Shown: positions 45,184-61,866 of the stretch, piece by piece | Layout: each line of letters opens with the position of its first letter | Numbering within the stretch: position 1 is the first letter of the stretch | Assembly: GCF_003050965.1 (NCBI RefSeq) | Contig: NZ_QAOU01000007.1 | Coordinates: forward strand, 62,001 to 126,000 | Length of the DNA: 64,000 nucleotides | Direction: 5' to 3' | DNA from: Nitrosospira sp. Nsp2 | Lineage (GTDB): Bacteria; Pseudomonadota; Gammaproteobacteria; Burkholderiales; Nitrosomonadaceae | The notes under the pieces: model-generated | Database searches by the model: none | The model's input: the letters and a program-made list of their open reading frames with translations, nothing else | Told to the model about the DNA's origin: nothing | Made by a program: the position numbers and the translations under genes

Positions 45184-45259
<76 letters not shown>

Positions 45260-45295
45260 TCTCCACCAATGGCTTACATAAACCTGTCAGCAGCG

Positions 45296-45324
45296 GGGTA
45301 CCGGCCGGGTAACGCCGGGGTAAC
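45296..45324 (+). repeat. GGGTAAC repeats near the left end, 11-bp spacing
   Basis: GGGTACC at 45296, GGGTAAC at 45307 and GGGTAAC at 45318 are spaced 11 bp apart, one helical turn, starting 36 bp inside the left repeat. Matching copies lie near the right end. They are likely arm-type binding sites for the integrase or excisionase. Confidence 0.6.
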
Positions 45325-45351
45325 TTCATTCGAATTGTTGCGATAAGGAAG

Positions 45352-45370
45352 GGCTTAAGATGTTAAGCCT
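45352..45370 (+). terminator. Hairpin downstream of tRNA-Thr
   Basis: GGCTTAA (45352-45358) and TTAAGCC (45363-45369) are perfect arms with a GATG loop, followed by TTTCGTGCTTTT. It may end the tRNA transcript within the element. The T-run is interrupted, so this is only moderately supported. Confidence 0.45.
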
Positions 45371-45778
45371 TTCGTGCTTTTCCCCCCGCTTGCGTCGTAT
45401 TGCTCACTTCCAACACCCAGTCGCTTTCCAGTTGAATAGTCACTAATATCCCGAATCTTTCGCAACGAAGAAAGCATTAGGGAACGTCAGCGGCTTCGCC
45501 CCAAGTAGATTAGGGAAGACTTAAATCTTCTAGAAAAACTTCTCTTACTTATGGTAGGTCAATCGTTCCCAAAGGGACCCTTCAGCATAACAACCTTTAC
45601 ACGGTTTATAGGAGCCAGGAAAGCGTTACCGTCGATCCTCGAAAGGGTCACGGCTGCAAGTTCAATCGATCGATTCCTTTAACAATTTCGATGGCAAAAA
45701 GGGAATCAGATGCACTGACCCGAATAATTATTCAACATGTCCCCGTGCGGATTGCTTTGGCAGTTGCTCATCCGAGGT

Positions 45779-45790
45779 GGAAACGTTTCC
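45779..45790. promoter_or_regulatory. Palindrome GGAAACGTTTCC, copy 1
   Basis: This perfect 12-bp palindrome is 281 bp upstream of the OLD-family gene. Three other exact copies lie in the same element at 48816, 52097 and 53343. The ACGTTT core resembles LacI-family operators such as PurR boxes, but no LacI-type gene is in the window. Confidence 0.6.
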
Positions 45791-46071
45791 GGTTGCAATG
45801 TGCCTATTGCGGCTTTTGTTCCAACGCATAGGTGTGTTTGGCGTACCTAAGTCCAATAGCCAGCTGAAAAAGAAGCTCTAGAATATAATGCCTCCCGCTG
45901 ACCGGTGGGTAAGGTCACCACCAACGTAGGGGCAGATGTTTCGTGGCGCGTCTGCGTCATTCCCGCCCTACTATTCGGCGGCCTTAGCTCTTGTTGCTGG
46001 CTGCTACTGCATCACGCAACGAAAAATAAGAGCGCTTTTAAGTCGGATGTTTTCATTAATCTGAACTCAAG

Positions 46072-47826
46072 ATGAACAATAAGAATGTTTTAATAAAAGG
46101 GTTCGCCCTAGGAGGCTACCGAAGCTTTGGGGACAACATCCAACGATTTGAGGACTTTTCGAAGATCAATCTCTTTGTGGGACAGAACAACTGTGGAAAA
46201 TCTAACGTCCTACGTTTCCTTTACGATATTTATCCCAAGCTCGCGCAGGGTTCCATAGGTCTTGATAAGCTAGACCTTCACGTTCCATCTCACGCAGCCT
46301 TTCGAACAGGAACAGCTGTTTCCTTTCCAGACGACTCGGGAAGCCACTGGAGTGACTTCGATAAAGAGATCCTTCCCATAATCAGAAAACCTCAGCCGAA
46401 ATTGCAAGAGTTCGTATTACGAGTCTTCCGCGAAAAAGCCAAGCTAGATGATACGAAAAAGGTGTGGTTCGATTTCAATCCCGATCGCAGCTTAATTCAG
46501 CAGAACTGGGAAGAAGCGTTTCGAGTCCTTTCAGACAGCGAGATGGAAATGCTGTGGTCTTCATTGACGGCTAAATCTGGCGGGATGCGCCAAAGAGATT
46601 GGTATCCTGACTGCTTGAGGTCACTTACACCAAAATTCAAAGCTTTCAGCGTCGCGATGGTCCCTGCGATTAGGCGCGTGGGAACCAAAGGTAGCCTGTC
46701 CGAGGAGTTCAGCGGCGATGGAATTATCGAACGCTTGGTAAAGCTGCAGAATCCCGGCGTCCATAATCGAACAGATAACGAGAAGTTTCAAAAAATCGTT
46801 AGGTTTCTACAGACCGTTACGGATAACGAAACTGCTTTAATAGAGATCCCTCACGAAAAAGATACCATTCTCGTTATCATGGACGGAAAGGCGCTCCCAT
46901 TAGAGTCCCTGGGTACGGGAATTCATGAGGTCATAATACTGGCAGCTGCTGCGACTATCTTGGAGAACACAGTCGTTTGCATGGAAGAGCCGGAACTTCA
47001 CTTGAATCCGGTTCTTCAAAAGAAACTAATTAGGCATCTCTTGAATTCTACTAATAATCAATACTTTATCTCAACTCACTCTGCGTCCTTTATGGACACA
47101 CCACAAGCCGAGATCTACCACATTCAGCTTTTAGGTGGAAAGTCTATGGTAGAACGTGCGACAACGGATAAAACAAGGTCCGCCATTTGCGAAGATCTAG
47201 GGTATCACCCCTCGGATTTGCTTCAGTCGAACTGCGTGATATGGGTGGAGGGGCCATCGGATCGTATTTACCTGAACTGGTGGATCAGCTCAATTACGAA
47301 GCGATTGATTGAAGGGATTCATTATTCGATCATGTTTTATGGAGGTAGGCTAGCTTCTCACCTTTCGGGAGAAGATGTAAAAGACATAAACGGGTTTCTG
47401 GACGATTTCATATCATTACGACGCCTTAACCGACGAGGAGTTGTTTTAATCGATAGTGACAGGGAGAAGAAAAGGTCTCCTATCAATTCGACGAAGATGC
47501 GACTGCGCGAAGAATTCGACAAAGGCCCCGGATTTGCCTGGATAACTGAAGGCAGAGAGATCGAAAATTACTTAGATTCGACACATATAGAAGAGGCTAT
47601 AAGAACAGCACAGCCCTCTTTAACTTGCATTTCAAGCTTCACGGTGTATGAGAATTACTTATCTGTGCTAGATAGCAAGGGTAAAACCGGCACAGCTTCG
47701 AAAGTGAAAGTTGCGAAACATATAAGTGAAAACTGCCAGCCCGATCTGTCGAGATTAGATTTGAAGAAGCAGATTAAGAAATTAGTAGATTTTATCGATG
47801 AATCTAACGTAGGCGTGCACGGGTAA
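46072..47826 (+). CDS. OLD-family ATP-dependent endonuclease (AAA ATPase plus Toprim), probable defence gene
   Basis: The 584-residue protein has an N-terminal ABC/RecF-like ATPase and a C-terminal Toprim nuclease domain. Walker A is GQNNCGKS at 37-44; Walker B is VVCMEEPELHLNP at 301-313; the H-loop is STHSASF at 335-341. The Toprim domain has IWVEGPSD (Glu393) and LIDSDRE (Asp461, Asp463). P2 Old and GajA share this layout. No UvrD helicase (GajB) or reverse transcriptase follows, so it is a lone OLD protein. Such genes often act against phages when carried on mobile elements, which is inferred here. Composition is richer in A and T than that of host genes. The ribosome site is weak. Confidence 0.88.
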   Translation: MNNKNVLIKGFALGGYRSFGDNIQRFEDFSKINLFVGQNNCGKSNVLRFLYDIYPKLAQGSIGLDKLDLHVPSHAAFRTGTAVSFPDDSGSHWSDFDKEILPIIRKPQPKLQEFVLRVFREKAKLDDTKKVWFDFNPDRSLIQQNWEEAFRVLSDSEMEMLWSSLTAKSGGMRQRDWYPDCLRSLTPKFKAFSVAMVPAIRRVGTKGSLSEEFSGDGIIERLVKLQNPGVHNRTDNEKFQKIVRFLQTVTDNETALIEIPHEKDTILVIMDGKALPLESLGTGIHEVIILAAAATILENTVVCMEEPELHLNPVLQKKLIRHLLNSTNNQYFISTHSASFMDTPQAEIYHIQLLGGKSMVERATTDKTRSAICEDLGYHPSDLLQSNCVIWVEGPSDRIYLNWWISSITKRLIEGIHYSIMFYGGRLASHLSGEDVKDINGFLDDFISLRRLNRRGVVLIDSDREKKRSPINSTKMRLREEFDKGPGFAWITEGREIENYLDSTHIEEAIRTAQPSLTCISSFTVYENYLSVLDSKGKTGTASKVKVAKHISENCQPDLSRLDLKKQIKKLVDFIDESNVGVHG

Positions 47827-48029
47827 TTTCCTAACCAAGGGCAAAGCTGGCTACAGAATGGAGCAATTCCAAGAGAAGGGCGGAAATGCTTGAGGTAGCT
47901 TTAGTTGGCAGTCATGAACATGCGAAGGAGGCGTGTTACGAGCATGATCCACTCCATCTTTTCGTCCAAAGAACGTTCCAGCGATGACCGCACATTAGAT
48001 CCATTACGCAAGAGGAGCAGATACTTAAC

Positions 48030-48149
48030 ATGCAGCGGAAAACAAATTCGGCTGTCGTTTCTGCTATTGGAGCCGGATTCTTTACACTGTTATCGCATGC
48101 GCCAACGATAATAACCCATCTAGAAAATTTGCCTAAAGATGTATCGTAG
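48030..48149 (+). CDS. Possible 39-residue membrane peptide
   Basis: An ATG at 48030 opens a 39-codon frame, MQRKTNSAVVSAIGAGFF and onwards, ending DVS. It has one hydrophobic segment (AVVSAIGAGFFTLLSHAPTII). AGAGGAG lies 12 bases upstream, a bit far. It could be a real small membrane protein, for example an anti-phage effector or toxin, or a fragment of a decayed gene, since the 47827-48249 stretch contains IS debris. I recognise no homologue. Confidence 0.25.
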   Translation: MQRKTNSAVVSAIGAGFFTLLSHAPTIITHLENLPKDVS

Positions 48150-48580
48150 TGCAATACGGTGCGCGATAATTCCACAGGCAGGCATGACGCTCCGAGATCC
48201 CCGTTTGCTCCCACATCGCCGTTTACTGCCTCACGCCTTGCTTGTGGAGTTAAGGCTTTCGGCCCAAGGCTACCTTCAGGGCTTCAGCATCCCGAAATGA
48301 CTCTGCTAATAGCTTTTTGAGTTGGTTATTCTCAGCTTCAAGGTCCCGCAGCCGTTTCGCGTCCGGCACGGTCATCCCGCCAAACTTCGCACGCCAAGTG
48401 TAGAACGAGCCATCGCTAAAGTCATACTGGCGGCATAATTCCCGGACCGGAACCCCTCCATCGGCCTGTTTCGGAAACCCAATAATTTGCTCATCCGTAA
48501 ACCGTTTCTTCACATTCGTTCTCCTCTCGAAAAACGAACTTTCCTAGATTCTAAATGCACTGTTTATGGGGAGCACGTCA
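48140..48580 (-). mobile_element. IS3-family remnant (left end, orfA and start of orfB)
   Basis: On the minus strand the remnant begins with TGACGTGCTCCCC at about 48580, an IS3-like terminal end. orfA follows, then a decayed start of orfB: EQTGISERHAC in one frame (about 48195-48170) and ELSRTVLHYDT in another, a frameshift. The rest of orfB and the other end are missing. The copy is dead, and it marks an old insertion in the element. Confidence 0.8.
48250..48513 (-). pseudogene. IS3-family transposase orfA (intact frame in a truncated IS)
   Basis: The 87-residue protein is a typical OrfA: a helix-turn-helix (RFTDEQIIGFPKQADGGVPVRELCRQYDFSDGSFYTWRAKFGG) followed by a leucine-zipper coiled coil (RLRDLEAENNQLKKLLAESF). 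It starts at GTG 48511-48513 with GAGGAG upstream. It is complete, but OrfB, which holds the DDE catalytic residues, is broken, so no functional transposase is made. Its upstream regulation is only that of the IS. Confidence 0.85.
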
Positions 48581-49367
48581 CCCCTTGTCAATAGTTTTTC
48601 GCTTTCAAGAGGCTCATCATTACTATGAACAAAGTTAACAATGGGAGACCGTGCTTATTAACATGTAAACCTCACAGTAGCGTATAAACACGGCTCGCTA
48701 TTGCTTATACTACACAGTAGCTCCTGACTTTCCTCCGGCGTCATAAGCTCAGGGGGTCAGGGCAAAAATCCAAAATAAACATCCTTAATTCTCAATGACT
48801 TAACTCGCCACACTGGAAACGTTTCCAGTTTCCACTAGCGTCTTACCTTGGCTGCCCGATTTTCCAATTCGCACACCAATTAGATTGTTTAAACGGCATA
48901 TTTGACAAGATTCGGTTTGGAAAACTTTAATTTATCATCTGCCGTTCGTTAAGCTATTGTTAATGTCCCCCTCACTTGATACCCAATATTGTAACGAAGC
49001 TCCAATAATGAACACGTGACAGGGCGCCAGGGGTTCAGGTTCAATACTGACGTGGGTGAAAAGGATAGGAGTATCTCGACCGATTTGGGCGTATGCGTTA
49101 TTGGCAAGATTTACATTGCTCAGCAATTTACTCAACCTTTGCCATTTCCAGCCCTGGACCATTTCTGCTAATACTCTAATACTTTGTGTCTATTTTTTTT
49201 GATAGTCAAAGTCACATTGCCACAGGGACTGTCCGACCCTCCCGGCAATACCGGACATGGAATATCCTGGATATGCGTCTTCCCGACTGTTAAAAACTCC
49301 TACTTTCTCTCTTCATTTTTTTCAACCTTAGTATTTATCCAAGCTATCACTATCAAAGAGGTCTTAC
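48581..49367. other. AT-rich stretch upstream of the AAA ATPase gene, no gene seen
   Basis: These 787 bases hold the second palindrome (48816-48827) but no supported gene. Two short frames, 48935-49162 minus and 49184-49375 plus, lack ribosome sites and familiar motifs. The high A+T content fits foreign promoter DNA. Confidence 0.5.
48816..48827. promoter_or_regulatory. Palindrome GGAAACGTTTCC, copy 2
   Basis: Here the symmetry extends to 18 bp, ACTGGAAACGTTTCCAGT at 48813-48830. It is 541 bp upstream of the AAA ATPase gene. This is the longest of the four copies. Confidence 0.6.
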
Positions 49368-50663
49368 TTGATTGATCCAGAAAAAGGATTCACATCCGAC
49401 GTTATAACAGATCCGGAACGATTTGTTGGACGTACGGAACTCATCAGATCCTGCATGCAAGCACTGAACTCCCCCACTAGCTTAATCGCAATATATGGCA
49501 AACGGGGGGTTGGAAAATCATCGTTACTAAGACAAGTGCAACAAATGGCTCTAGGAGATTACAGTTTAGCAACTAGGGCCGGTTTAGATCATGAAATACC
49601 CCAATCGCCTAGAACGTTTTTAACCGTTTTTTATTCCTGTGACTCAATCATAAATTCCGGTGAGGAACTCCTCCACCGATTATGTAATGACCAAAATGAT
49701 GAAGATGGATTGTTGCGGCTTGTGCCTAGTGACGGTAAGGAATTGGTAGAGTTTACTAGGACCAAAGAAGTCGGCGGCGGCGCTGATTTGAAGGTTGTTA
49801 ATTGGGGTATTAAAGGAATTGAAACATCAAAATACGCCAAGGTTGTAGACGGCAATACGGTTCAAACTTTTAGGAATTTTGTTTCATCTATCGTTCAGCA
49901 CCAAGTTAAGAAAATGATGAAACGGGATGGTTTACTCATCCTCCTAGATGAGTTTGATGTTTTACCGAACAAAACAGGGTTGGGTTCACTAATTAAATCG
50001 CTAAGCTCCAAAGATGTAAAGTTTGGTGTTTGTGGCATCGGTCAAGATTTGACAAATCTTATTGATGATCACGCATCGGTAGAGCGTCTTTTGGAACAAG
50101 GCGCTATCCATGTTAAACCAATGCCCCATGACGAAGCCTGTGCTGTTTTGGATAAGGCGGAAGAATTATTTCAGGGAGAGCTTACTATTGATCGCGATGT
50201 AAAAGACGCAATAGTGTCTGTATCCCAAGGCTACCCGTACTTTATACAGATGATAGGAAAATCTTGTGCCAATAAAGCATCTCAACTGGGAGCTACTTGC
50301 GTCAATGAAACTGTTTACGGCAAGGTAATGAACGACATAAAGAACGGTATCGCTTTCCCCAATCTTGAGAGTTCCTATAAAAAAGCCATTGGTAATTCTG
50401 AAAGCAGACAAATGCTATTACACCTTCTCGCTGACCACCCAGAGGAAGAGACATTGTTTCACGAGGACGTTGGACGGATTTTTCTTAAAAACGTTAGGAG
50501 GGACGCACCAGATTTTGATGTCGATAATCTCGATCAAAACCTTCCGCGTTTAATCGATAAAAACTATGGCCCAGTATTAAGGAGAATTCCGGAAGGACAA
50601 GGGATATATGAATTTATTAATCCTGTTTTTCGACTTTATGTAAAACTGAGGGCCATAACATAA
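49368..50663 (+). CDS. Orphan AAA/STAND-type ATPase, possible defence protein
   Basis: The 431-residue protein looks like an Orc1/STAND-type ATPase. It has a PERFVGRTELI entry motif at 16-26, Walker A GKRGVGKSS at 44-52, Walker B LLILLDEFD at 189-197 with Asp194 and Glu195, a sensor-like VKFGVCGIGQDLTNL, and a C-terminal helical/winged-helix-like part (FHEDVGRIFL, YEFINPVFRLYVKL). No effector domain is recognisable. The start is TTG 49368, with AGAGG 6 bases upstream. It sits alone between two IS remnants and is rich in A and T. Proteins of this type can act as sensor ATPases in defence or regulation; the role here is unknown. Confidence 0.7.
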   Translation: MIDPEKGFTSDVITDPERFVGRTELIRSCMQALNSPTSLIAIYGKRGVGKSSLLRQVQQMALGDYSLATRAGLDHEIPQSPRTFLTVFYSCDSIINSGEELLHRLCNDQNDEDGLLRLVPSDGKELVEFTRTKEVGGGADLKVVNWGIKGIETSKYAKVVDGNTVQTFRNFVSSIVQHQVKKMMKRDGLLILLDEFDVLPNKTGLGSLIKSLSSKDVKFGVCGIGQDLTNLIDDHASVERLLEQGAIHVKPMPHDEACAVLDKAEELFQGELTIDRDVKDAIVSVSQGYPYFIQMIGKSCANKASQLGATCVNETVYGKVMNDIKNGIAFPNLESSYKKAIGNSESRQMLLHLLADHPEEETLFHEDVGRIFLKNVRRDAPDFDVDNLDQNLPRLIDKNYGPVLRRIPEGQGIYEFINPVFRLYVKLRAIT

Positions 50664-50762
50664 TTCTAGGAAAAAATTTAACTGGTGGCGGCGCATAAAA
50701 AGCGAGTCGCCATGATCTAATTAGACTCAGTCGATTGATCCCAATTCGCTACGAATCCTACG

Positions 50763-51059
50763 TGTTAGTGCCGCTGTAATACTGACCCATTGAACCGGAG
50801 TAAAACTGACTCGCTTGGGTGAATATAGGGACTTTTTGGCTGCCGATTATGTTGACTCAGGAGGAAGCAGTAAAAATCAATCAAGGTATTGATGCGGCCC
50901 GGTACTCGAATTCGGGAGATGGCGCGTCCAATCAAGCTTGATCCGTACAAGGATTATTTGCTGGAACGTGTCCATGCCGCAGGGCCGCACTGGATTCCGG
51001 CCGTAGTGTTGCTTCGAGAGATAAAAGAGCGTGGCTATCCTGGCGTGTTACGTAGCTAA
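50763..51059 (+). mobile_element. IS21-family remnant (left end and broken istA)
   Basis: TGTTAGTGCCG at 50763 and the repeated AATACTGACCC/AAACTGACTC pattern are an IS21-type terminus. istA starts at ATG 50849 (LTQEEAVKI) and shifts frame to give [42 protein letters not shown] before a stop at 51057-51059. The N-terminal helix-turn-helix is partly deleted and the remainder of istA, all of istB and the right end are missing. It is inactive. Confidence 0.85.
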
Positions 51060-51172
51060 AGGAGTTTCGGAGCACCCAGCCAGGACGCAGCCCGCAACGT
51101 AGGCCTTCTCGTGTGAGAGCCCATCTCCCAGATCGCTAGCGAGTTTCTCATGCCCGACATTCCTTAATACTG

Positions 51173-52825
51173 TCATGACTTTTGCCCTCCTTCCAGCGAA
51201 TCGACACCACCTGAACCAGGTACGCAGCTGTTGGACAGTTTGGAAGGCTCGGATAGTTTTTCAGGAAGTATTCCCATATAAGTGTTACTAGGTGAAATTC
51301 TCCCAAAACCCTCCGAACTATCCGAACCGTCCAATAAACCGATACCGTGATAAAAGACCGTCCCCCGTTTATCTTTCGTGAAACCGCGCTCTGTCAACTT
51401 TCTTCCGAACTGGCAGGAGTTCATGATATCCCGCCCACTATTTTCCGTATGTCGCTTAAAACTGCTATAGAGCGATTTCGCTGCGCTAGTAGCACTAGCC
51501 AATTGTATACAGCAGCTTTCCAGCCAGTCCCCGACCAAGTCCATTTCTTTCCTGTATAGATCGGTAGCGCCCGTAACTTCACGGGGAGGGTTTAACCCCT
51601 GCCGCTGCCAGTCCAGACATCCGTTGACCGCCCATGCAAGAATGCCTGAATATTCCAAGCGCAGCTTATCTCCGAGTTTGCGATCCATTTCATCTAGCGA
51701 AAAGGTGACACTGAAAGGCACTAGGTGAATACGCCGCCATATGGCGTAATCATCACCGCGAATAACTGGCTTGTGGTTGGCGGCGAGCCAAATCTTGCTA
51801 GTCGGTTTGAACACAAAGTGTTCGCCATAAAGGAATCGGGCTGCAATATCGTCGCCGCCGGTAAGTTGCTTAACCGTGGCCTCCCCAAACCGGCGGCCTT
51901 CGTCTGTTTCGGAAGTAGCCACAAAACGCATTCCACGCAATCGAGCGATGTCGTTGGTAGCACTGCCTTCGCGTTTCACCATCAGAGTTTCTGCCGCACA
52001 CTGGGTAGCATAGCCTCCCAACATCTCCCTGATCACGTTCAGGAACGTACTCTTGCCATTTGCGCCCATTCCGTGGAGGAAGAAAAGGCATTGCTCGGAA
52101 ACGTTTCCGGTTAAGCTGTAACCGATGGCTCGCTGAAGGAATTCCACAAGGTGAACGTTGCCGCCTGTAATCTTATCCAGAAATGAAATCCAGGTTGGGC
52201 AGTGCGAATCATCCTCGTAATCAACATGCGCATGCTTGGTAACATATTCTTCTCGACGGGATTTTCTCAGCCGGCCGGTTCTAAGGTCTATAACTCCATT
52301 GTTAACCCCAAGTAACCAGTCGTCCTGATCTAACTCTTTCTGACTGATCGTAATCCCCGGCTCTGACTTGGCAAGCTCTATCATTGCATGGAGGCTTGGT
52401 AGATTCTGGGATTTATCAGCGTGGGCGGCTACGGTTCTTGCTTGCTCCCTATCCTGTGCCTTTGCTGCTTCACGATAGATTTGTTCTGCTGTTTTTTTGG
52501 CAAAGCGCATGATTGCCCCGTCGACGTCGGGGGTCCATCGAAGGCCGTCCCAGACAATCCACCGCTTAAACTCTGCGACCCAGCGGATGTTTACCCCATG
52601 TTTAACCACTAGCCGCTCTGCGTTCCCTATATCTGTGAGTCTTTGTTGTCGTTTTAACGCTGGCGCGTCTTGAGGCGCACTGGGGAAACAATTGATAATT
52701 CCTTCTCCTTTGGAGCGGGAATTAACGGGGAACAGAGAGGGCACATTAGCGCCACGAGACACTTCCCCATTTACCAACTCTGGTACTTCGCCATCTTTCG
52801 GCAATGCACTCTTCTCAGTCTTCAT
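51173..52825 (-). CDS. Phage/plasmid-type primase-helicase (D5 N-like plus SF3 helicase)
   Basis: The 550-residue protein has a D5 N-like region (DWLLGVNNGVIDLRTG at about 169-184) and a superfamily 3 helicase core with Walker A HGMGANGKST at 251-260, FVATSETDEGRRF (Walker B/sensor zone) and KIWLAANHKPVIRGDDYAIWRR (motif C). P4-like satellites and plasmids use such proteins to start their own replication. No separate primase zinc domain is visible. The start ATG overlaps the HTH gene by 11 bp, so the two form an operon. A GGAAACGTTTCC palindrome lies inside it. It is probably the replication protein of the element. Confidence 0.88.
   Translation of the reverse strand: MKTEKSALPKDGEVPELVNGEVSRGANVPSLFPVNSRSKGEGIINCFPSAPQDAPALKRQQRLTDIGNAERLVVKHGVNIRWVAEFKRWIVWDGLRWTPDVDGAIMRFAKKTAEQIYREAAKAQDREQARTVAAHADKSQNLPSLHAMIELAKSEPGITISQKELDQDDWLLGVNNGVIDLRTGRLRKSRREEYVTKHAHVDYEDDSHCPTWISFLDKITGGNVHLVEFLQRAIGYSLTGNVSEQCLFFLHGMGANGKSTFLNVIREMLGGYATQCAAETLMVKREGSATNDIARLRGMRFVATSETDEGRRFGEATVKQLTGGDDIAARFLYGEHFVFKPTSKIWLAANHKPVIRGDDYAIWRRIHLVPFSVTFSLDEMDRKLGDKLRLEYSGILAWAVNGCLDWQRQGLNPPREVTGATDLYRKEMDLVGDWLESCCIQLASATSAAKSLYSSFKRHTENSGRDIMNSCQFGRKLTERGFTKDKRGTVFYHGIGLLDGSDSSEGFGRISPSNTYMGILPEKLSEPSKLSNSCVPGSGGVDSLEGGQKS
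52097..52108. promoter_or_regulatory. Palindrome GGAAACGTTTCC, copy 3 (inside the primase gene)
   Basis: The symmetry extends to CGGAAACGTTTCCG (52096-52109). It lies in the coding region of the primase-helicase, at the NVSEQ codons just before Walker A. A coding location could fit a replication or DNA-organisation site as well as an operator. Confidence 0.5.
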
Positions 52826-53066
52826 TTAGGCCCCCTGCCGTGATAGTGCGGGAAGCGAGCCAGCTATCCAGATCGGCTACGCGATATTTCACGAGACGGC
52901 CAACCTTGATGTATGGGATAAGGTATCTTTTCGTACAGCGCCAAACGTTAAGAGTACCAGCGGTAATGCCAAGATACGCGGCTGCGTCGGTCGAGCTTAG
53001 CTGGAAGGTGGGACGAGGGCTAGGAACTGGGGATGTTGCGGATGTATGTTGCATGTTGCTCTCCAA
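52815..53066 (-). CDS. Small helix-turn-helix protein (AlpA/excisionase-like)
   Basis: The 83-residue protein contains a MerR/AlpA-like winged helix: FQLSSTDAAAYLGITAGTLNVWRCTKRYLIPYIKVGRLVKYRVADLDSWL. Proteins of this type in integrative elements act as excisionase or as the activator of the integrase and replication genes. It is the first gene of an operon with the primase-helicase and overlaps it by 11 bp. It is the most likely element-encoded DNA binder, but it is too short to be a LacI-type regulator that would recognise the palindrome. Confidence 0.82.
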   Translation of the reverse strand: MESNMQHTSATSPVPSPRPTFQLSSTDAAAYLGITAGTLNVWRCTKRYLIPYIKVGRLVKYRVADLDSWLASRTITAGGLNED

Positions 53067-53721
53067 TCAAGAAAGTGGATTTCTTGACGGATTGGCCCAC
53101 CCAAATACAAAAGGGAAGCGCAAGCCGTCGGCTCGACACTTCCCCATCATTTTGGAGACTCAGATATTTCGCCAGGTAACCGGACTAACGTCTCCTCCAC
53201 GTTCTGGAGGAATTGTACCCGCACTACATATCAGTATTCTTAAGTATACTATCATTATTCATTTGAAATTTCAATCTCACGCAATTAACTTAAGTTCCTG
53301 TCGTTTAATTCAAAAATCCTAAGGAGTGTGACATTCTGTCGTGGAAACGTTTCCAGTGGCAGCCGTATGGGACTGAAACAAGGGATTTTTCTTATTCTGC
53401 CATGGGCTAGTTGAATTCAATTAATTGTAAGTCGCGTTTCATCTGCCAAACAATGCCAGATTCGAGTTACCGTTATCGACCCCCAACGCACCCGTTTAAG
53501 TACAGCAGCGAATCAGACGGCTTCCGTGCGAACCGCACATCCGGAAAATACAAAATTTCGAACATACCAGAAGGCGAGTTTAGCTAAAAGGTACGGTCGT
53601 ACCAGCTGACGCCGGCGCACGGAAAGGCATAGCCACTATGTTACTGTTACGAATTCGCTTACACAGGCCACTTCTTATATCATTCGCATAACGCCAACTA
53701 GAGCCAAGAGCAATCTCGCGA
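53067..53721. other. Divergent control region between the HTH gene and hsdR
   Basis: These 655 bases hold no supported gene. They contain the fourth palindrome (53343-53354) and should contain both the leftward promoter for the HTH-primase operon and the rightward promoter for hsdRSM. I could not pick clear -35/-10 pairs. Confidence 0.55.
53343..53354. promoter_or_regulatory. Palindrome GGAAACGTTTCC, copy 4
   Basis: Symmetry extends to TGGAAACGTTTCCA (53342-53355). It is 276 bp upstream of the HTH gene and 368 bp upstream of hsdR, so it could control either direction. Confidence 0.6.
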
Positions 53722-56505
53722 ATGACCGAGAACCAGAACCCAGAACAAAAAGCCCGAGACAATATTGACGCACTGCTCAAGCAAGCAGGCTGGGTCGTTC
53801 GATCAGCGAAGAAAATTGACTTCGGCGTGGGGCTCGGCATCGCGGTCAGGGAATACCAAACCGATGTCGGTCCGGCGGACTATGTCTTATTTGTTGACAA
53901 AAAGGCAGTGGGCGTCATCGAGGCAAAGAAGGAAGACCTTGGCCACAAACTCATCGAAGTCGAACAGCAGACTGAAGGTTACGCCGCTGCCAAGTTAAAG
54001 TGGGTGAACAACAAGGAACCCTTGCCCTTCCTCTACGAAAGCACAGGCATCATCACCCGCTTCACCGATGGCCGTGACCCCAAGCCCCGTTCCCGAGAAG
54101 TGTTCAACTTCCCCCGCCCAGAAACCATCAAGGGATGGTTATCCCAAGGCGTCAGCCTGCGCCAGCGCTTGCAAACCATCCCCGATCTGAACCCGAGCCA
54201 CTTGCCCGCCCAGACACTGCACCTGCGCGACTGTCAGGAAATTGCCATCACCAATCTGGAGAAATCGTTCAAGGCGGACCGGCCACGCGCCCTAATCCAG
54301 ATGGCCACTGGGGCCGGCAAGACCTACACCGCCATCACCTCCATCTATCGGCTGCTTAGGTACGCAGAAGGGAAACGCATCCTATTCCTCGTCGACACCA
54401 AGAACCTTGGCGAGCAGGCCGAGCAGGAAATGATGTCCTACGTCCCTCTCGACGATAACCGCAAGTTCACCGAGCTCTACAACGTTCAGCGGCTCAAGTC
54501 TTCGTACATCGCCAAGGATAGCCAGGTCTGCATCAGCACCATTCAGCGCCTGTACTCCATCCTCAAGGGCACCGAGCTCGACGAAGCCGCGGAAGAAATC
54601 AACCCGGCCGAGCTTGCTCAACCTAAGGCGCCGCTGCCGGTCGTCTATAATGACAAGATTCCGCCGGAGTTCTTCGACTTCATCTACATCGACGAATGCC
54701 ACCGCTCCATCTACAACCTCTGGCAACAGGTCATCGACTACTTCGACGCCAGCCTGATCGGTCTTACTGCCACGCCGGATAACCGCACCTACGGCTTCTT
54801 CAAGAAAAACGTTGTCAGCGACTACAGCCACGAAAAAGCCGTGGCCGATGGCGTTAACGTCGGCAATGAAATCTACGTCATCGAAACGCAGGTCACTAAA
54901 GCCGGCGGCGAAATCAAGGCGCAGCAGCAGGTCGAGCGCCGCGAAAAGCTCACCCGCAAGAAGCGCTGGGAGCAGCAGGACGAAGACGAGACTTACTCTG
55001 CCGCCCAGCTCGATAGAAACATCGTCAACCCGGACCAGATACGCACGGTCATACGCACTTTCCGCAACAAGCTGCCCGAGATATTCCCCGGCCGCACAGA
55101 AGTGCCGAAGACCCTTATCTTCGCCAAGACCGACAGCCACGCCGACGACATCATCCAAACCATGCGCGAAGAGTTCGGCGAGGGGAATGCCTTCTGCAAG
55201 AAACTCACCTACAAGATCGAAGAAGACCCTAAGTCCGTCCTGGCCCAGTTCCGTAACGATTACTACCCGCGCATCGCGGTCACCGTCGATATGATCGCCA
55301 CCGGCACCGACGTCAAACCGCTCGAATGTCTGCTCTTCATGCGCGACGTCAAGAGCCGCAACTACTTCGAGCAAATGAAGGGGCGCGGCACCCGCACGCT
55401 GGACATGGACGATCTGAGGAAAGTCACGCCATCCGCCAAGAGTGCCAAGACCCACTACGTCATTGTCGACGCCATCGGCGTAACCAAATCGCTCAAGACG
55501 GCTAGCCAGCCCCTCATCACCAAGCCCACGGTACCGCTCAAGGATTTGGCCATGGCCGTCATGATGGGCGCCACCGACGAAGACACCGTTTCATCTCTCG
55601 CCGGCCGCCTGGCCCGCCTCAACAAGCAACTTGATAGCGATGAGCAACGGCAAATTCGCGACGCCGCCGGCGGCGTCGAGCTCAGCCAGATCGTCGGCAG
55701 GCTATTCAGCGCCATCGACGCCGACAACATCGAAGCCAGAGCCCTGGAGCTCGCTGGCCTTCCAATAGGTTGCGACCCCGGCGACACCCAGCGCCAGCAA
55801 GCCCAAGAACAGCTGGTCAATGCCGTCTCCAGTGTCCTCAACGGCGAGCTGGTCGAGCTCATCGACGCCATCCGCCGCGACAAAGAGCAGACCATCGACC
55901 ACGACAATATCGACACCCTGCTGCGTGCCGAATGGGACAAGGATGCCGCAAACAATGCACAGGCCCTGACCGACGAGTTTGCCGACTACCTGAAGTCCAA
56001 CCGGGACAACATCACCGCCCTTACCATCTTCTTCAGTCAGCCGTACAGAAGGCGCGAACTCAGCTTCGACCTCATCCGGCAGTTGCTCGATAAGCTCAGG
56101 ACCGACAAGCCCAAGCTCGCACCCCTGCGCGTGTGGCAGGCCTACAGCCAGCTGGACGCCTATAAAGGCGAGCACCCGATCAGCGAACTCACCGCGTTGG
56201 TGGCGCTCATCCGCCGGGTCTGCGGCATGGATGAAAAGCTATCGACCTTTGACGATACCGTCCGCCGTAACTTCCAGAACTGGGTGATGAAGCACCACTC
56301 CGGCGGCAGCGAGAAATTTAACGGGGAACAAATGAAGTGGCTGCGTATGATCCGGGATCACATTGCTAACTCATTCCACATCGAGCGGGCTGATCTTGAA
56401 CTGTCACCATTTGATGGGCAAGGTGGATTAGGAAAAATGTATCAACTGTTCGGCGCGAAGATGGACACAGTGTTGGATGATTTGAATGAGGGACTGGTGG
56501 CGTGA
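53722..56505 (+). CDS. hsdR: Type I restriction endonuclease subunit R
   Basis: HsdR is the translocating and cutting subunit of a type I restriction-modification enzyme. The 927-residue protein has the N-terminal PD-(D/E)xK nuclease (Asp53 in GPADY, Glu67-Ala-Lys69 in VIEAKK), SF2 helicase Walker A ATGAGKT at 195-201, DECH at 324-327, LTATP (motif III), and further helicase motifs (VTVDMIATGTDVKPLECLLF and QMKGRGTRT). It resembles the EcoEI-like class. The stop overlaps the hsdS start as GTGA, so R, S and M are translated as one coupled operon, in the order R-S-M. Confidence 0.96.
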   Translation: MTENQNPEQKARDNIDALLKQAGWVVRSAKKIDFGVGLGIAVREYQTDVGPADYVLFVDKKAVGVIEAKKEDLGHKLIEVEQQTEGYAAAKLKWVNNKEPLPFLYESTGIITRFTDGRDPKPRSREVFNFPRPETIKGWLSQGVSLRQRLQTIPDLNPSHLPAQTLHLRDCQEIAITNLEKSFKADRPRALIQMATGAGKTYTAITSIYRLLRYAEGKRILFLVDTKNLGEQAEQEMMSYVPLDDNRKFTELYNVQRLKSSYIAKDSQVCISTIQRLYSILKGTELDEAAEEINPAELAQPKAPLPVVYNDKIPPEFFDFIYIDECHRSIYNLWQQVIDYFDASLIGLTATPDNRTYGFFKKNVVSDYSHEKAVADGVNVGNEIYVIETQVTKAGGEIKAQQQVERREKLTRKKRWEQQDEDETYSAAQLDRNIVNPDQIRTVIRTFRNKLPEIFPGRTEVPKTLIFAKTDSHADDIIQTMREEFGEGNAFCKKLTYKIEEDPKSVLAQFRNDYYPRIAVTVDMIATGTDVKPLECLLFMRDVKSRNYFEQMKGRGTRTLDMDDLRKVTPSAKSAKTHYVIVDAIGVTKSLKTASQPLITKPTVPLKDLAMAVMMGATDEDTVSSLAGRLARLNKQLDSDEQRQIRDAAGGVELSQIVGRLFSAIDADNIEARALELAGLPIGCDPGDTQRQQAQEQLVNAVSSVLNGELVELIDAIRRDKEQTIDHDNIDTLLRAEWDKDAANNAQALTDEFADYLKSNRDNITALTIFFSQPYRRRELSFDLIRQLLDKLRTDKPKLAPLRVWQAYSQLDAYKGEHPISELTALVALIRRVCGMDEKLSTFDDTVRRNFQNWVMKHHSGGSEKFNGEQMKWLRMIRDHIANSFHIERADLELSPFDGQGGLGKMYQLFGAKMDTVLDDLNEGLVA

Positions 56506-58070
56506 CCAAACTGCATAAACCTAAGTCATGGGAGTCTGTGGCACTAGAAACTCTTGCCACCCTGACATTGGGAGGTGACTGGGGCAAAGAAGCCGAGTTT
56601 GAATCAGAAGACTACGCACTAGTGCTTAGCATCAGAGGAGCAGAGATTCGTCACTGGAGCGAGAACAAAGGCTCAACAGCCTCTTTGCGCAAAGTTAAGA
56701 AATCAAGCTTGGCAAGCCGACTGCTCAAGGGTGGTGACATCCTAGTTGAGATATCTGGTGGCGGGCCTGATCAACCTGTTGGTCGTACTGTTCTGATTGA
56801 TAAAAGCGTTTTTGCGTACGCACCGAACACCCCTAAAATATCCACAAATTTCCTACGTCTACTTCGAACCTGTGAAGAAATCGATTCAAGCTTCCTGAAT
56901 CACTATCTCCAGTATTTCTACAAGAGCGGGGAAATCTCAGCTTATCAAGCTGGGAGCAACAATCTTAGGAATCTCAAGTTCAACGATTATCTTGGCCTTC
57001 AAATACCTCTCCCCCCATTTCGAGAACAACACCGCATTGTCGCAAAAATTGAGGAATTGTTTTCCGAATTGGACAAGGGAATCGAAAACCTGAAGACAGC
57101 CCGCGCACAGCTCAAGGTATATCGCCAAGCCCTGTTGAAGTACGCTTTCGAGGGCAAGCTCACCGAGAAATGGCGCGAAGAAAATAAGGACAAACTGGGA
57201 ACCGCCGCAGCGTTGCTGAAGCGCATCCAACTGGAGCGCGCGCAACGCTACCAGCAGCAACTCGCCGATTGGGAAGCCGCTGGCAAACGAGGCACCAAAC
57301 CCAAAGCCCCAAAAACCCTGCCGCCGAAGACCGCCGAAGACCTGGCCGAATTGCCCGAACTGCCGAAGGGATGGGGGTGGTTTAAGGTGGCTGACCTAGC
57401 AAATGTTTCAGGTGGCTTAACGAAAAATCCGAAAAGAAATATTTTTCCGATAAAACGTCCGTTTCTCCGGGTCGCGAACGTTTATGCCAATAGACTTGAA
57501 CTGGACGATATGCACGTCTCCGGCGTTTCTGAGACAGAAATTGAAAGAGTCATTTTAGTTAAGGGAGACATTCTCGTTGTGGAAGGAAATGGTAGCGTCG
57601 ATCAAATTGGCAGAGTTGCTATTTGGAATGGGGCAATTGATGAATGTGTACATCAAAACCATCTCATTAAAGCGCGACCACTGAATTTTGTTTGCTCAGA
57701 ATTCATCCTGCATTTCTTGATGTCAGAGTTAGGGCGAAAATTTATTGTCCGTGCGGCGAGTTCAACATCTGGTTTGCATACTTTGAGTATCTCAAAAGTT
57801 GAAAGCCTATTCGCTCCACTTTGCGCAAGAGCAGAACAAGACGTCCTATTGAACGAACTGTCAGTCAAACTTTCACTGGTCGATCAACTCGAACAGACCA
57901 TCATTACCTCATTGCAACAAGCCGAAGCCCTGCGAAAGTCCATTCTAAAGAAAGCCTTCTCCGGCCGGCTGGTGCCGCACGACCCGCACGATGAACCCGC
58001 GTCGGCGCTGCTGGCGCGCATCAAGGCAGAAAAGTCCGCCCAACCCCAAGGCAAGAAAGCCCGCAAATGA
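56502..58070 (+). CDS. hsdS: Type I restriction-modification specificity subunit S
   Basis: HsdS sets the recognition sequence. The 522-residue protein has two target-recognition domains (about 10-165 and 285-445) separated by conserved helical regions: LPPFREQHRIVAKIEELFSELDKGIENLKTARAQLKVYRQALLKYAFEGKL in the middle and LCARAEQDVLLNELSVKLSLVDQLEQTIITSLQQAEALRKSILKKAFSGRL at the end. The target sequence cannot be read from this. Start is GTG 56502 overlapping hsdR; the stop overlaps the hsdM start as ATGA. Confidence 0.95.
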   Translation: MTKLHKPKSWESVALETLATLTLGGDWGKEAEFESEDYALVLSIRGAEIRHWSENKGSTASLRKVKKSSLASRLLKGGDILVEISGGGPDQPVGRTVLIDKSVFAYAPNTPKISTNFLRLLRTCEEIDSSFLNHYLQYFYKSGEISAYQAGSNNLRNLKFNDYLGLQIPLPPFREQHRIVAKIEELFSELDKGIENLKTARAQLKVYRQALLKYAFEGKLTEKWREENKDKLGTAAALLKRIQLERAQRYQQQLADWEAAGKRGTKPKAPKTLPPKTAEDLAELPELPKGWGWFKVADLANVSGGLTKNPKRNIFPIKRPFLRVANVYANRLELDDMHVSGVSETEIERVILVKGDILVVEGNGSVDQIGRVAIWNGAIDECVHQNHLIKARPLNFVCSEFILHFLMSELGRKFIVRAASSTSGLHTLSISKVESLFAPLCARAEQDVLLNELSVKLSLVDQLEQTIITSLQQAEALRKSILKKAFSGRLVPHDPHDEPASALLARIKAEKSAQPQGKKARK

Positions 58071-59548
58071 ACGCAACCGCATCCATCGTTTCCAAAGTCT
58101 GGAGTTTCTGCACCACCCTGCGCGACGACGGCGTGGGCTATGCCGATTATCTGGAGCAGCTCACCTACCTGATCTTCCTAAAGATGGCGGACGAGTACAG
58201 CCAGCCGCCTCATAGCCGCCAGGTGGGCATCCCCGCCGAATACAACTGGCAAAGCCTCAAGGCCAAGCGCGGCGCTGAGCTGGAAGTCCATTACGTAACG
58301 CTGTTACGCGAGTTAGGCAATAGGCCCGGCATGCTCGGCACGATCTTTACCAAGGCGCAGAACAAGATTCAAGACCCGGCTAAACTGTATCGCCTGATCG
58401 ACATGGTGAATGAAACCGAGTGGGTCACCATGGGCGCCGATGTCAAAGGCGACATCTACGAAGGCCTGCTCGAACGCAACGCCGAAGATACCAAATCCGG
58501 CGCCGGCCAATACTTCACCCCTCGCGCCCTCATTCGCGCCATGGTTGAGTGTGTGCGCCCCGAGCCCAACAGGACGATTGCCGACCCTGCCTGCGGCACC
58601 GGCGGCTTCTTCCTCGCCGCCTATGACTTTCTGGTGGGGACGCACCAGATGAATAAGGCGCAGAAGGCCTTCCTCAAGCACGACACCTTCCACGGCAACG
58701 AAATCGTCGCCAGCACTCGCCGCCTTGCCTTAATGAACATGTTCCTGCACAACATTGGCGAGATCGACGGTGACAGCATGATTTCTCCTAATGATGCTCT
58801 GGTCGCCAGCTCGCCGAAAACCTATGACTACGTTCTCGCCAATCCGCCCTTCGGCAAGAAGAGCGCTATGAGCTTTACCAACGAAGAAGGCGAACAGGAA
58901 AAGGACGACCTAACCTACAACCGCCAGGATTTCTGGGCCACCACCTCAAATAAGCAGCTCAACTTCGTCCAGCACATCCGCACCATGCTCAAAACAAATG
59001 GACGCGCCGCCGTGGTCGTACCTGACAATGTGTTGTTTGAAGGCGGCGCCGGGGAAACGGTGCGCAAGAAGTTGATGGAGAACACCGACCTGCACACCAT
59101 CCTGCGCCTGCCAACCGGCATCTTCTACGCCAACGGCGTCAAGGCGAATGTGCTGTTCTTCGACAACCACGCCGCCAGCAAAGACCCCTGGACCAAGGAA
59201 GTCTGGTTCTACGATTACCGCACCGACATTCACCATACGCTCAAAAAGAAGCCGCTCCGCTTCGAGGACTTGAAGGATCTCATCGCCTGCTACAACGCGG
59301 GCAACCGCTTCGAGCGCAAGGAAACATGGAACGAGCAGACCAACCCAGAGGGCCGCTGGCGTAAATTCACTTACGAGCAGATCATCGCTCGCGACAAAAC
59401 CAGCCTTGATATTTTCTGGCTTAAGGACAAGAGCCTCGTTGATCTGGATAACCTGCCCGAGCCCGATGAGCTGGTTGGCGAGATTATCGACAATATCGAG
59501 GCAGGATTGGATAGCTTCCGAGCGGTTGCTGCCGCACTTGCCAAATAA
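58067..59548 (+). CDS. hsdM: Type I restriction-modification methyltransferase subunit M
   Basis: HsdM is the adenine methyltransferase of the type I enzyme. The 493-residue protein has the HsdM N-terminal domain (VWSFCTTLRDDGVGYADYLEQLTYLIFLKMADE), the SAM motif ADPACGTGGFF at 172-182 and the catalytic NPPF motif IV starting at Asn259. GQYFTPRALIRAMVECVRP is also typical. It is the last gene of the R-S-M operon and is followed by a perfect 12-bp inverted repeat. Confidence 0.96.
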   Translation: MNATASIVSKVWSFCTTLRDDGVGYADYLEQLTYLIFLKMADEYSQPPHSRQVGIPAEYNWQSLKAKRGAELEVHYVTLLRELGNRPGMLGTIFTKAQNKIQDPAKLYRLIDMVNETEWVTMGADVKGDIYEGLLERNAEDTKSGAGQYFTPRALIRAMVECVRPEPNRTIADPACGTGGFFLAAYDFLVGTHQMNKAQKAFLKHDTFHGNEIVASTRRLALMNMFLHNIGEIDGDSMISPNDALVASSPKTYDYVLANPPFGKKSAMSFTNEEGEQEKDDLTYNRQDFWATTSNKQLNFVQHIRTMLKTNGRAAVVVPDNVLFEGGAGETVRKKLMENTDLHTILRLPTGIFYANGVKANVLFFDNHAASKDPWTKEVWFYDYRTDIHHTLKKKPLRFEDLKDLIACYNAGNRFERKETWNEQTNPEGRWRKFTYEQIIARDKTSLDIFWLKDKSLVDLDNLPEPDELVGEIIDNIEAGLDSFRAVAAALAK

Positions 59549-59944
59549 CTAATCAACATTGCTTTGTGGATGCCGACTGCCATAGGCAAGAACGGTTTTT
59601 TGCTGGATAGTGAAGCGGACGGAACGTCGACCTTCCTGACCTTCGTCCGACATCGAGGCATTGCCGAGCGACTCGGCCGGAAGCGCCACCGTGCCTTCCG
59701 GCCGAGAAGATGACATTAGCTATATAGATTGCGAGCAACCGCTTTTCGCACTCGGCGCCCCGGCAGAATTCAACCGAATTGAACGTGTTTTCGCCCGGAT
59801 TACCATTTATTGTAAGGCGCGTGCGTCCATATCATAGCTGTTACGGCTCACTTAGGCAGGTGATACGGCCTCGGCATAATCTCGAAAACTTAGGAGGAAT
59901 GACAGCTATCTGTTTACGGAAGGTCCATCAATCGTTGATTTCTT
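59549..59944. other. Gap between hsdM and the integrase, no gene seen
   Basis: These 396 bases lie between the convergent ends of hsdM and int. Apart from the inverted repeat at 59672-59706, I see no supported gene; a 62-codon frame at 59779-59967 has no ribosome site and overlaps the integrase end. Confidence 0.55.
59672..59706 (+). terminator. Perfect 12-bp hairpin downstream of hsdM
   Basis: CTCGGCCGGAAG and CTTCCGGCCGAG pair perfectly around an 11-base loop. Lying between the convergent hsdM and int genes, it could end transcription from one or both sides. It has no T-run, so it may be a rho-dependent or stability hairpin, or the footprint of a mobile sequence. Confidence 0.45.
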
Positions 59945-61129
59945 TCAATCAAGCTTCGTCACATTAGCTCGGTTCTTCAATCCAGCCGCCGCCATCATTG
60001 CACTTGTCGCGGTGTTCACGCTATCCCTTACCGGATCAAGATCAAGCCGTGCATAAATAGCCGTGGTATTCTGGTTCTTGTGGTTAAGGCTCTTTCCAAT
60101 AATCGCCATTGATGCGCCTGTTTTCGCTTGCCAGCTTCCCAAAGTGCGCCGTAAATCATGGATACGTAGGTCAGAAATACCAGCACGTTTCAAGATGCGC
60201 TCCCAGCCCTTTTTAGGCTCTGCCAGATGCCCAGCCTTACCGATACCGGGAAATACATATCTTGCACCTTCTAAGGGCTTCCTTGCGCGTAATACTTCCA
60301 TCGCTTCAGGTGATAACGTTACTGTCTGCGGTGTGCCGTTCTTGGTCTCCCTGATGCGCCACTCAGCCCTTTCAAAGTTCACATCAGCCCATTGCATTGC
60401 CAGTACGTTCGAACGTCTAGCGCCAGTCAACAGGGACAATAAGAAGTAATCACGCATCGTGTCGTTTTGCTCATCTGCCAATGCCTGGAAGAACCTCGGC
60501 AACTCATCGCCTTGTATGAACCGGTCGCGTGAATTTTCCTTGTTGAGCTTAATTCCCGTTGCAGGATTGGTGTGCCATAGCCCAGCAGCTATTGACCATC
60601 CAAATATGCTTGATACTAGAGCTTTCACCCGATTAGCAGTTATCCCATGACCTGATTTGGTGATACTGCTATGAATTGCCGCAATATCAGCCCTATTAAT
60701 AGCGGAGAGCTTTTTGTTGCCTAACGGCTTCTCAAGATAGGTCTTGAACTTTGACTCATCCTCAGCCCAAGTTCTTTTATTGAGTTTGGAGTGACGGTCA
60801 AGATAATCAGCGAACAGGGCAGAAAAGGTTAACTCAGCCTTTCGCCCTCTCTTCACTTCACCGGGATTCAGGTCATGGGCAATGTCAGAGTTTATTTGAG
60901 TAGCCTTACGCCTTGCTTGCTCAACTGTCAGGTCAGGATAACGCCCTATCGTGATGCGTTCGAGGGTGCCGTGAATACGACGTAGAACAGAAAACGTTCT
61001 TGTCCCGTTAGAAGTAACCCGAAGTTGTAAGCCCGTAGTTTTGGTATCTTGATAGTCGGCCCGTTTGCCGTGTTCGGGTAAGGTCAGATCGGCGATTGCA
61101 GCCTTGGTGAAATTGATCTTGTTTGCCAT
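59945..61129 (-). CDS. Tyrosine integrase (P4-type) of the element
   Basis: The 394-residue integrase has the DUF4102-like N-terminal arm-binding domain (TKTTGLQLRVTSNGTRTFSVLRRIHGTLERITIGRYPDLTVEQAR), a core-binding domain and the catalytic domain with Arg238 (TGARRSNVL), His324-x2-Arg327 (HDLRR), His350 (SLNHKN) and Tyr359. It belongs to the P4-like class, which integrates in tRNA 3' ends, consistent with the 47-bp repeat in tRNA-Thr. The start ATG is 13 bp from the GGGTAAC repeats, so the protein could repress its own promoter. All catalytic residues are present. Confidence 0.95.
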   Translation of the reverse strand: MANKINFTKAAIADLTLPEHGKRADYQDTKTTGLQLRVTSNGTRTFSVLRRIHGTLERITIGRYPDLTVEQARRKATQINSDIAHDLNPGEVKRGRKAELTFSALFADYLDRHSKLNKRTWAEDESKFKTYLEKPLGNKKLSAINRADIAAIHSSITKSGHGITANRVKALVSSIFGWSIAAGLWHTNPATGIKLNKENSRDRFIQGDELPRFFQALADEQNDTMRDYFLLSLLTGARRSNVLAMQWADVNFERAEWRIRETKNGTPQTVTLSPEAMEVLRARKPLEGARYVFPGIGKAGHLAEPKKGWERILKRAGISDLRIHDLRRTLGSWQAKTGASMAIIGKSLNHKNQNTTAIYARLDLDPVRDSVNTATSAMMAAAGLKNRANVTKLD

Positions 61130-61140
61130 GATTATTCTTA

Positions 61141-61171
61141 GGGTAACGTTGGGGTAACTCTAGGGGGTAAT
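61141..61171 (+). repeat. GGGTAAC repeats in front of the integrase gene
   Basis: GGGTAAC at 61141 and 61152, 11 bp apart, and GGGTAAT at about 61165. The same motif, orientation and spacing occur near the left end (45296-45324). They lie in the promoter region of int. Confidence 0.6.
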
Positions 61172-61277
61172 TCGCAGCTAAATCGAGGTTATTCCGTTAA
61201 CGTCACTATAGGCGTAATATGTTGCTATATCAACGCTTATTAAACTTCGTTAACCCGTAACTGTACGTGAACCGTCG

Positions 61278-61324
61278 GATTCGTAATCAGTAGGTCGGAG
61301 GTTCGACTCCTCTCAACAGCACCA
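61278..61324 (+). repeat. Right attachment repeat (partial tRNA-Thr copy)
   Basis: Identical to 45213-45259 over 47 bases. It has no acceptor 5' half or D arm, so it is not a working tRNA. It marks the right boundary of the element. Confidence 0.92.
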
Positions 61325-61866
61325 GATCCAATCCTTTGATTCCCAGGTACCCTGACCAGCGGTCCCTCTGCGCTCCTAGGTAGCGGAAATAGGTTTGGCA
61401 GGACTGCCAACTTCAAGGGATCGAGTTCTTGTTGCAGACCGCGCTGAACCTACTCCAGGCCGTGCTGAACCTACTCTAGATTTGCATTTTTCAGCTTCGA
61501 TAAAATACCCGGCATATTGCTGTGTAACACCCCACGCCGCTCGCCGCTAGAGCGATGTCTACGTTGTTATCCCGCTGCATCGCCAATAAGCGCACGCGCT
61601 TGGATGAGCAGGCTTCGAGAATCTCTCTGATCGCGAGACCGCCCCCTTATCTAGCGGACGACCCGCCGGGAAAAGTGTCGAATTAAGCTTACCTTAAAAC
61701 CCGGGTTGTGTAAGCGTTTTGGCGTTTGAAACGTTCATCCCTTCTTCTTGAGTCACAAAGCACAGCCAGGTGATTGGTAAAGGAAATCGATTTCCTACAA
61801 CCCCTCTTTATTAATCAGGATTTTGTTGATCTTCTTTGCCCAATTTTGCGAAAAAGGGTTTTGTAG
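61325..61866. other. Intergenic region right of the element, no gene seen
   Basis: These 542 bases have no supported gene. GCTGAACCTACTC occurs twice 21 bp apart near 61441-61480. A near match to the element palindrome (GAAACGTTC) lies near 61717 but is imperfect. AAAAAGGG about 8 bases before 61867 is a ribosome site for the next gene. Confidence 0.5.

Follow-up and report, generated by a model that had tools for sequence, protein, structure and literature searches.

Four dispersed palindromes in a Nitrosospira integrative island and the phage ParB-like protein family that accompanies their word

Which protein reads a perfect 12-bp palindrome, GGAAACGTTTCC, that stands four times in one island of the Nitrosospira sp. 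Nsp2 genome and at no other place in it? The window analysed here is a stretch of 64,000 nucleotides (contig NZ_QAOU01000007.1, positions 62,001 to 126,000 of the forward strand), and the element in question is a 16.1-kb (16,118-bp) integrative island in tRNA-Thr(CGT) that spans 45213..61330 of this window. The word recurs in phages of several groups, where it is associated with a family of ParB-like proteins, PHROG 1033. The explanation that we favour, and consider probable if only just, is that the palindromes are sites for such a protein, brought in trans by a phage, whether helper or invader.

Four exact copies in one island

The sites lie as follows.

45779..45790: site 1, GGAAACGTTTCC(GGT), intergenic, 281 bp ahead of the OLD-type gene
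48812..48829: site 2, the 18-bp perfect palindrome ACTGGAAACGTTTCCAGT, with the 12-mer at 48815-48826, intergenic; the 12-mer lies 541 bp from the NTPase gene
52097..52108: site 3, GGAAACGTTTCC(GGT), within the primase gene, where it codes for GNVS of a TGNVSEQ stretch
53343..53354: site 4, GGAAACGTTTCC(AGT), between the helix-turn-helix (HTH)/primase operon and hsdR, which diverge from this gap

The first-pass annotation of this DNA had reported four exact copies, three intergenic and one inside the primase gene, the second centred in an 18-bp palindrome, and no further copy in 64 kb. All of this stands (the five remaining window matches to the 12-mer have two mismatches each), save that the second copy starts at 48815 rather than at 48816. 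The intergenic sites are 281, 541 and 276 bp from start codons. All four sites share the extension to YGGAAACGTTTCCRGT, in the same orientation; being perfect palindromes with RGT on one side only, they are not the asymmetric, oriented sites of the L5 stoperator type.

The whole 3.46-Mb genome contains GGAAACGTTTCC exactly four times, always in the island, and the backward control not once. Copies with one mismatch number 15 genome-wide, none of them in the island, and look like background, because the backward control gives 10. The cluster is real, at P about 1e-12: the probability of four or more sites in the 16,118-bp island is 6e-13 at a background rate of 15/36, 2e-13 with the background taken from 100 relatives (32 sites, spread over 27 of them), and 6e-10 for three copies with the one in the primase gene left out. 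The palindrome is thus not found at similar density in core DNA, and its absence there supports the earlier proposal of one dimeric DNA-binding protein whose sites are confined to the element.

Elsewhere among relatives the word is sparse. The 32 occurrences in 100 related genomes fall in 27 of them (~0.3 per genome), and the flanks of 27 copies from relatives differ, save for a few that resemble one coding position. Among 399 genomes of the order the 15-bp form GGAAACGTTTCCRGT is present in 13, and in more than one place only in the host genome. A frequent host word of the HIP1 kind was considered and rejected: of 369 genomes of the class, two contain TGGAAACGTTTCCA, the host's among them, and a hand calculation puts the expectation at ~4 copies. 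A genome of the same species has one copy of GGWAACGTTWCC, the form of the word with W at the third base (hereafter W-site), which may correspond to the one core copy that the host genome has. Two copies of GGAAACGTTTCC lie 18 kb apart on one contig from another family of the order (G087:C10:14078 and 31994). A full-text literature search found the 12-mer in no paper.

The word in phages and its ParB-like companion

Phages are where the word abounds. A scan of a viral collection (IMG/VR) gives 116 stretches with YGGAAACGTTTCCRGT, and at least 120 with RSTGGAAACGTTTCCASY; the reversed palindrome gives 9. Whole-record counts cover 24 virus records and two cellular genomes, all selected because they contain the word. 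Three contigs of 58-60 kb carry 21, 23 and 23 copies, one of 25 kb carries 12, others 7, 6 and 6, five have 4, two have 3 and each of the remainder has one or two, with the backward control at 0 in all 26 records. Two whole contigs of 62 and 67 kb hold 12 and 10 W-sites, with controls at 1 and 0. Within a phage group with many genes in common (G353, G357, G358, G359, G366), the 52 orthologue pairs of G359 and G353 have a site within the gene or immediately ahead of it in 18 and 19 cases, and in both members in 12 (P=0.0015). A Mu-like group comprises G363, with matches to Mu transposase and Mor, and G372; each has four sites, which look to be at corresponding positions with different flanks. 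For phage group A, Planctomycete hosts are our guess. A word scan of cellular genome contigs gives at least 117 stretches from diverse taxa, and 18 of the 117 cellular motif loci among the matches listed have two or more W-sites. Three Halobacillus loci (L241, L246, L319) have two W-sites each in the piece read and, by regular expression, no LacI-like gene.

Profile searches of the loci chosen by the motif lead to one protein family, which combines an HTH with a ParB-type box (DGFHR) and a GANxxHGLRRxNxDKR motif. Among the matches listed, 14 of 319 motif-chosen loci have a family member (not all independent, since some belong to a single phage group), and in 10 of the 14 a W-site lies within the family gene itself; 85 control loci (9 with the reversed palindrome, 20 of primases, 29 of HTH proteins and 27 with the relatives' 12-mer) have none. 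The in-gene word sits after the HTH in the family genes read, L272 excepted. It is read as GNVS in some genes and as VETFP in others, and because two reading frames are used, it is the DNA and not the peptide that seems to be kept. All 13 members of alignment A1 of the family match phrog_1033 ('ParB-like partition protein'), three of them also Pfam ParB_N and three NCBIfam Noc. An AlphaFold2 model of a family protein (mean pLDDT 79.5, pTM 0.60) has DNA-bound Noc and ParB as its best PDB matches, with KorB from rank 22, at query TM-scores of 0.24-0.39, which are low to moderate; the model suggests a Noc/ParB/KorB fold. Matching of ParB boxes by regular expression in the open reading frames (ORFs) that bear a site (21/382 vs 50/2990) was noisy and is not used as evidence. 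One further locus, on a Chlorohelix plasmid (L575, NZ_CP128402.1), encodes a single protein whose annotation combines a DNA methyltransferase with a ParB-like domain.

The association holds in reverse, when loci are fetched by protein. The 80 viral loci used are the best 80 of at least 589 that match the family; four of them (L550, L551, L554, L556) look near-identical, the query A1 was itself built from motif-chosen loci, and two of the loci (L484, from the contig of L148, and L126) were also chosen by the motif. These 80 loci hold 24 W-sites where 0.24 are expected, and GGWAACGTTWCC takes the top rank among 180 permuted palindromes, whose counts average 0.38. The W-sites are concentrated in loci with an SHPxV motif, for which a match at any place in the ORF was accepted and which is assumed to be the recognition helix: 11 of 15 such loci have a W-site, and of the 65 loci without the motif 2 do (Fisher P=9e-9). 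The word of the island sites is identical to the word that accompanies these SHPxV-type members. The commonest palindromic 12-mers in the 80 loci are CTGCTCGAGCAG (14 in 13 loci) and GGTAACGTTACC (12 in 7), followed by CGCTGGCCAGCG (7 in 7) and GGAAACGTTTCC (5 in 5); CTGCTCGAGCAG and CGCTGGCCAGCG are either coding motifs or sites of further subfamilies. Given that the word tracks a ParB-like family in phages, the first-pass alternatives of operator set or origin/partition sites come apart: origin/partition is the nearer of the two, operator the less near.

A proposed reading in trans and its rivals

The island has the genes and borders of a P4-type integrative element, namely a tRNA-targeted integrase, a P4-type primase and a small excisionase-like HTH protein.

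45184-45259: tRNA-Thr(CGT)
45213-45265 and 61278-61330: 53-bp direct repeats, 96% identical, which copy the 3' part of tRNA-Thr(CGT)
46072..47826, plus strand: OLD-type ATPase (AAA_15; best PADLOC matches AriA and GajA), with a putative TOPRIM part
49368..50663, plus strand: AAA/STAND-type NTPase (nSTAND1, AAA_16)
51173..52825, minus strand: P4/D5-type primase-helicase (D5_N, DUF5906)
52815..53066, minus strand: 83-residue HTH_17 (excisionase-like) protein
53722..59548, plus strand: type I restriction-modification genes hsdR, hsdS and hsdM
59945..61129, minus strand: tyrosine integrase of the island

The site-bearing part of the island has a G+C content of 46.6%, against 53.8% for the hsd-integrase part and 54.8% for the remaining window. 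Nine island proteins scanned for capsid and terminase families gave no match, and a promoter scan found no excess (11 vs 11.4 in shuffles). An insertion-sequence remnant lies at 48250-48513 (HTH_Tnp_1 orfA), and a fragment at 50889-51059 that recalls an IS21-type transposase is presumably another.

No match to the ParB-like family was found among the window ORFs of 20 residues or more, and thus no cognate protein was detected on the island itself. Since it has phage-type sites and no detected family gene, the sites would be read in trans, when a phage brings the protein. Phages with both sites and family protein exist, and none is tied to this host. The predicted sequence of events is as follows. 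A phage, helper or invader, would supply the ParB-like protein to the island; the protein would bind the word and load at the four sites, perhaps then sliding as a clamp, as KorB does; and loading would couple the state of the primase/HTH genes and of the defence-type cargo to the presence of the phage. Alternatively, the island would gain a share in the partition or packaging of the phage. That a P4-like defence island might detect phages through their dispersed ParB-type site code, the phage protein switching the nuclease-type, NTPase and replication genes while the same sites let the island ride phage partition or packaging, is a bolder notion, and one that we hold to be rather doubtful.

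A number of observations weigh against reading in trans by a protein of this family. In 305 of the 319 motif-chosen loci the piece read has no family gene, nor was one found in the fetched parts of the two Mu-like phages. The A1 search finds no member in the host genome or in the genome of the same species (it is positive in congeners), and the A2 search of the host genome, made without a positive control, finds nothing at E up to 5. Relatives of the family occur without the word: A1 matches 12 of 23 genus genomes at E up to 0.01 (two at full length, G011 and G021, one in part, G016, and nine weakly, at E 0.002-0.01), and the regions fetched from G011 and G021, which resemble integrative and conjugative elements (ICEs), contain no exact copy; a further 20 plasmid and 3 phage records match, and GGWAACGTTWCC is absent from the six plasmids counted and from all three phages. 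Conservation of the sites in sister elements, which the first-pass annotation had made a touchstone, was not found: the 20 loci of primase relatives have no exact copy, of 399 genomes of the order only the host's has the 15-bp form at more than one place, and where relatives retain the sites they are phages and not islands. Finally, in other cellular genomes the word can serve as a LacI-type operator: by regular expression, five of the 117 cellular motif loci among the matches listed have a LacI-like gene that contains the site or adjoins it. Two congeneric loci (L462 and L480) have a full-length ParB-like relative, which in L480 adjoins a coupling-protein-like gene, as in an ICE; neither region has an exact copy of the word.

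The main rival is that the sites are a relic: a phage-like ancestor with integrase, HTH_17 protein, P4 primase, ParB-like protein and terminase would have lost the ParB-like and structural genes, leaving sites without present use. Such an arrangement exists. One locus of a Planctomycetota metagenome-assembled genome (L344, M_MetaBat.130) has an integrase, an HTH_17 gene, a primase, a ParB-like gene and a terminase together, and keeps the integrase-HTH_17-primase order beside its word-bearing ParB-like gene; its primase is 42% identical to that of the window over 443 residues. Its ParB-like gene is of a different subfamily (phrog_21315 and 4715, weakly 1033) and contains a 24-bp palindrome, ATTGGTGGAAACGTTTCCACCAAT. 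The failure to find a family member in island or host is also what a relic would predict. Yet all four sites are exact, the island has no one-mismatch copy, three sites stand in separate intergenic regions beside different genes, and the HTH_17 proteins of this locus and of the window do not align. We consider a relic unlikely.

Less likely still is a reader encoded by the island, its HTH_17 protein or primase-helicase, with the palindromes as operators or replication sites. One site does lie ahead of the HTH/primase operon and another inside the primase gene, and two motif-chosen loci have a primase relative: L344, and a viral contig (L211) in which a word-bearing ParB-like gene is directly ahead of a weakly similar primase (25%). 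Scans of cellular and viral contig collections with the primase confirmed no relative. However, the absence of exact copies from the 20 primase-relative loci extends to seven HTH-relative loci read at 11-20 kb (L112 and six others), so that sites linked to an origin and primase, or to HTH_17, are both rejected; and comparison of multi-copy phage contigs revealed no relative of the primase or of the HTH_17 protein. Origin iterons are clustered, and single dispersed copies are unlike them. At position 11436 of L112, a second HTH_17 locus of the host that lies close to tRNA-Arg, stands a palindrome CCAAACGTTTGG with the same core and the ends swapped.

That the sites are operators of a LacI-family regulator of the host is very improbable; the first-pass annotation had noted the likeness of the ACGTTT core to LacI-family operators and named a host regulator or an unknown protein as the possible reader. 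The likeness of the word to such operators and the five LacI-like genes at or beside cellular copies speak for it; a LacI HTH was found in none of the 23 genus genomes, the host's own included, in a search that was positive in 9 of 14 controls, core DNA has no copy, and the 202 viral motif loci among the matches listed have no LacI-like HTH by regular expression. Chance or compositional clustering, whatever the background of ~0.3 copies per related genome may contribute, has next to no probability in view of the cluster statistics above and of a flank, YGGAAACGTTTCCRGT, common to all four sites.

Comparable systems and what a reading in trans would mean

The nearest likeness is to SGI1, an island with two parS-like sites that are bound by the ParB of its IncC helper plasmid, stabilising the island (PMC10954446). 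In both cases an island has palindromic sites, known there and presumed here to be ParB sites, and the ParB comes, or would come, from another mobile element with many dispersed sites (14 on the plasmid). SGI1 differs in having a known conjugative-plasmid helper, with binding shown, where the helper here is presumed to be a phage and the four sites are set among defence-type genes. Phages of the mycobacterial cluster O have more than 30 copies of a 17-bp palindrome, TGTTCGGNNNCCGAACA, whose function is described as unknown, together with a ParB-like gene (PMC4351075). The word is a different one, as is the ParB subfamily, which does not match the family profile; 24-kb pieces of Firecracker and Catdawg hold 17 and 18 TGTTCGGNNNCCGAACA sites, none inside the ParB-like gene.

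KorB of RK2 has operators (OB) that differ in sequence from the island word. It acts on promoters up to 1.5 kb off, with protein and sites on one replicon, and KorA is needed for strong repression (PMC11790492). The likeness lies in a CTPase of the ParB fold whose operators are borne by a mobile element, and the intergenic sites of the island are 276 to 541 bp from start codons. L5-type stoperators are likewise short repeats in dispersed positions, and a single phage regulator binds them. They are asymmetric and oriented (in part PMC4351075), whereas sites of the island type are palindromic and occur also inside genes. The SPBRE repeats of SPbeta are dispersed, short and bound by one phage regulator, the recombinase-like MrpR (PMC10516654). 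For phage ParB-like proteins, a role in directing the modification of DNA as it is packaged has also been proposed (PMC6536676). According to a broad survey, the ParB fold is frequent on mobile elements (PMC12704722).

The association links an unexplained island palindrome to a pairing of site and protein that many uncultured phages share, and makes ParB-like proteins a concrete candidate for dispersed phage palindromes of unknown function, such as those of mycobacteriophage cluster O. Should the island be read in trans, the mimicry of parS that SGI1 practises on IncC would extend from plasmids to phages, and to defence-type islands; and if the sites do serve in phage detection, the island would be a chromosomal detector that reads a DNA-binding protein, and not a structural or damage signal.

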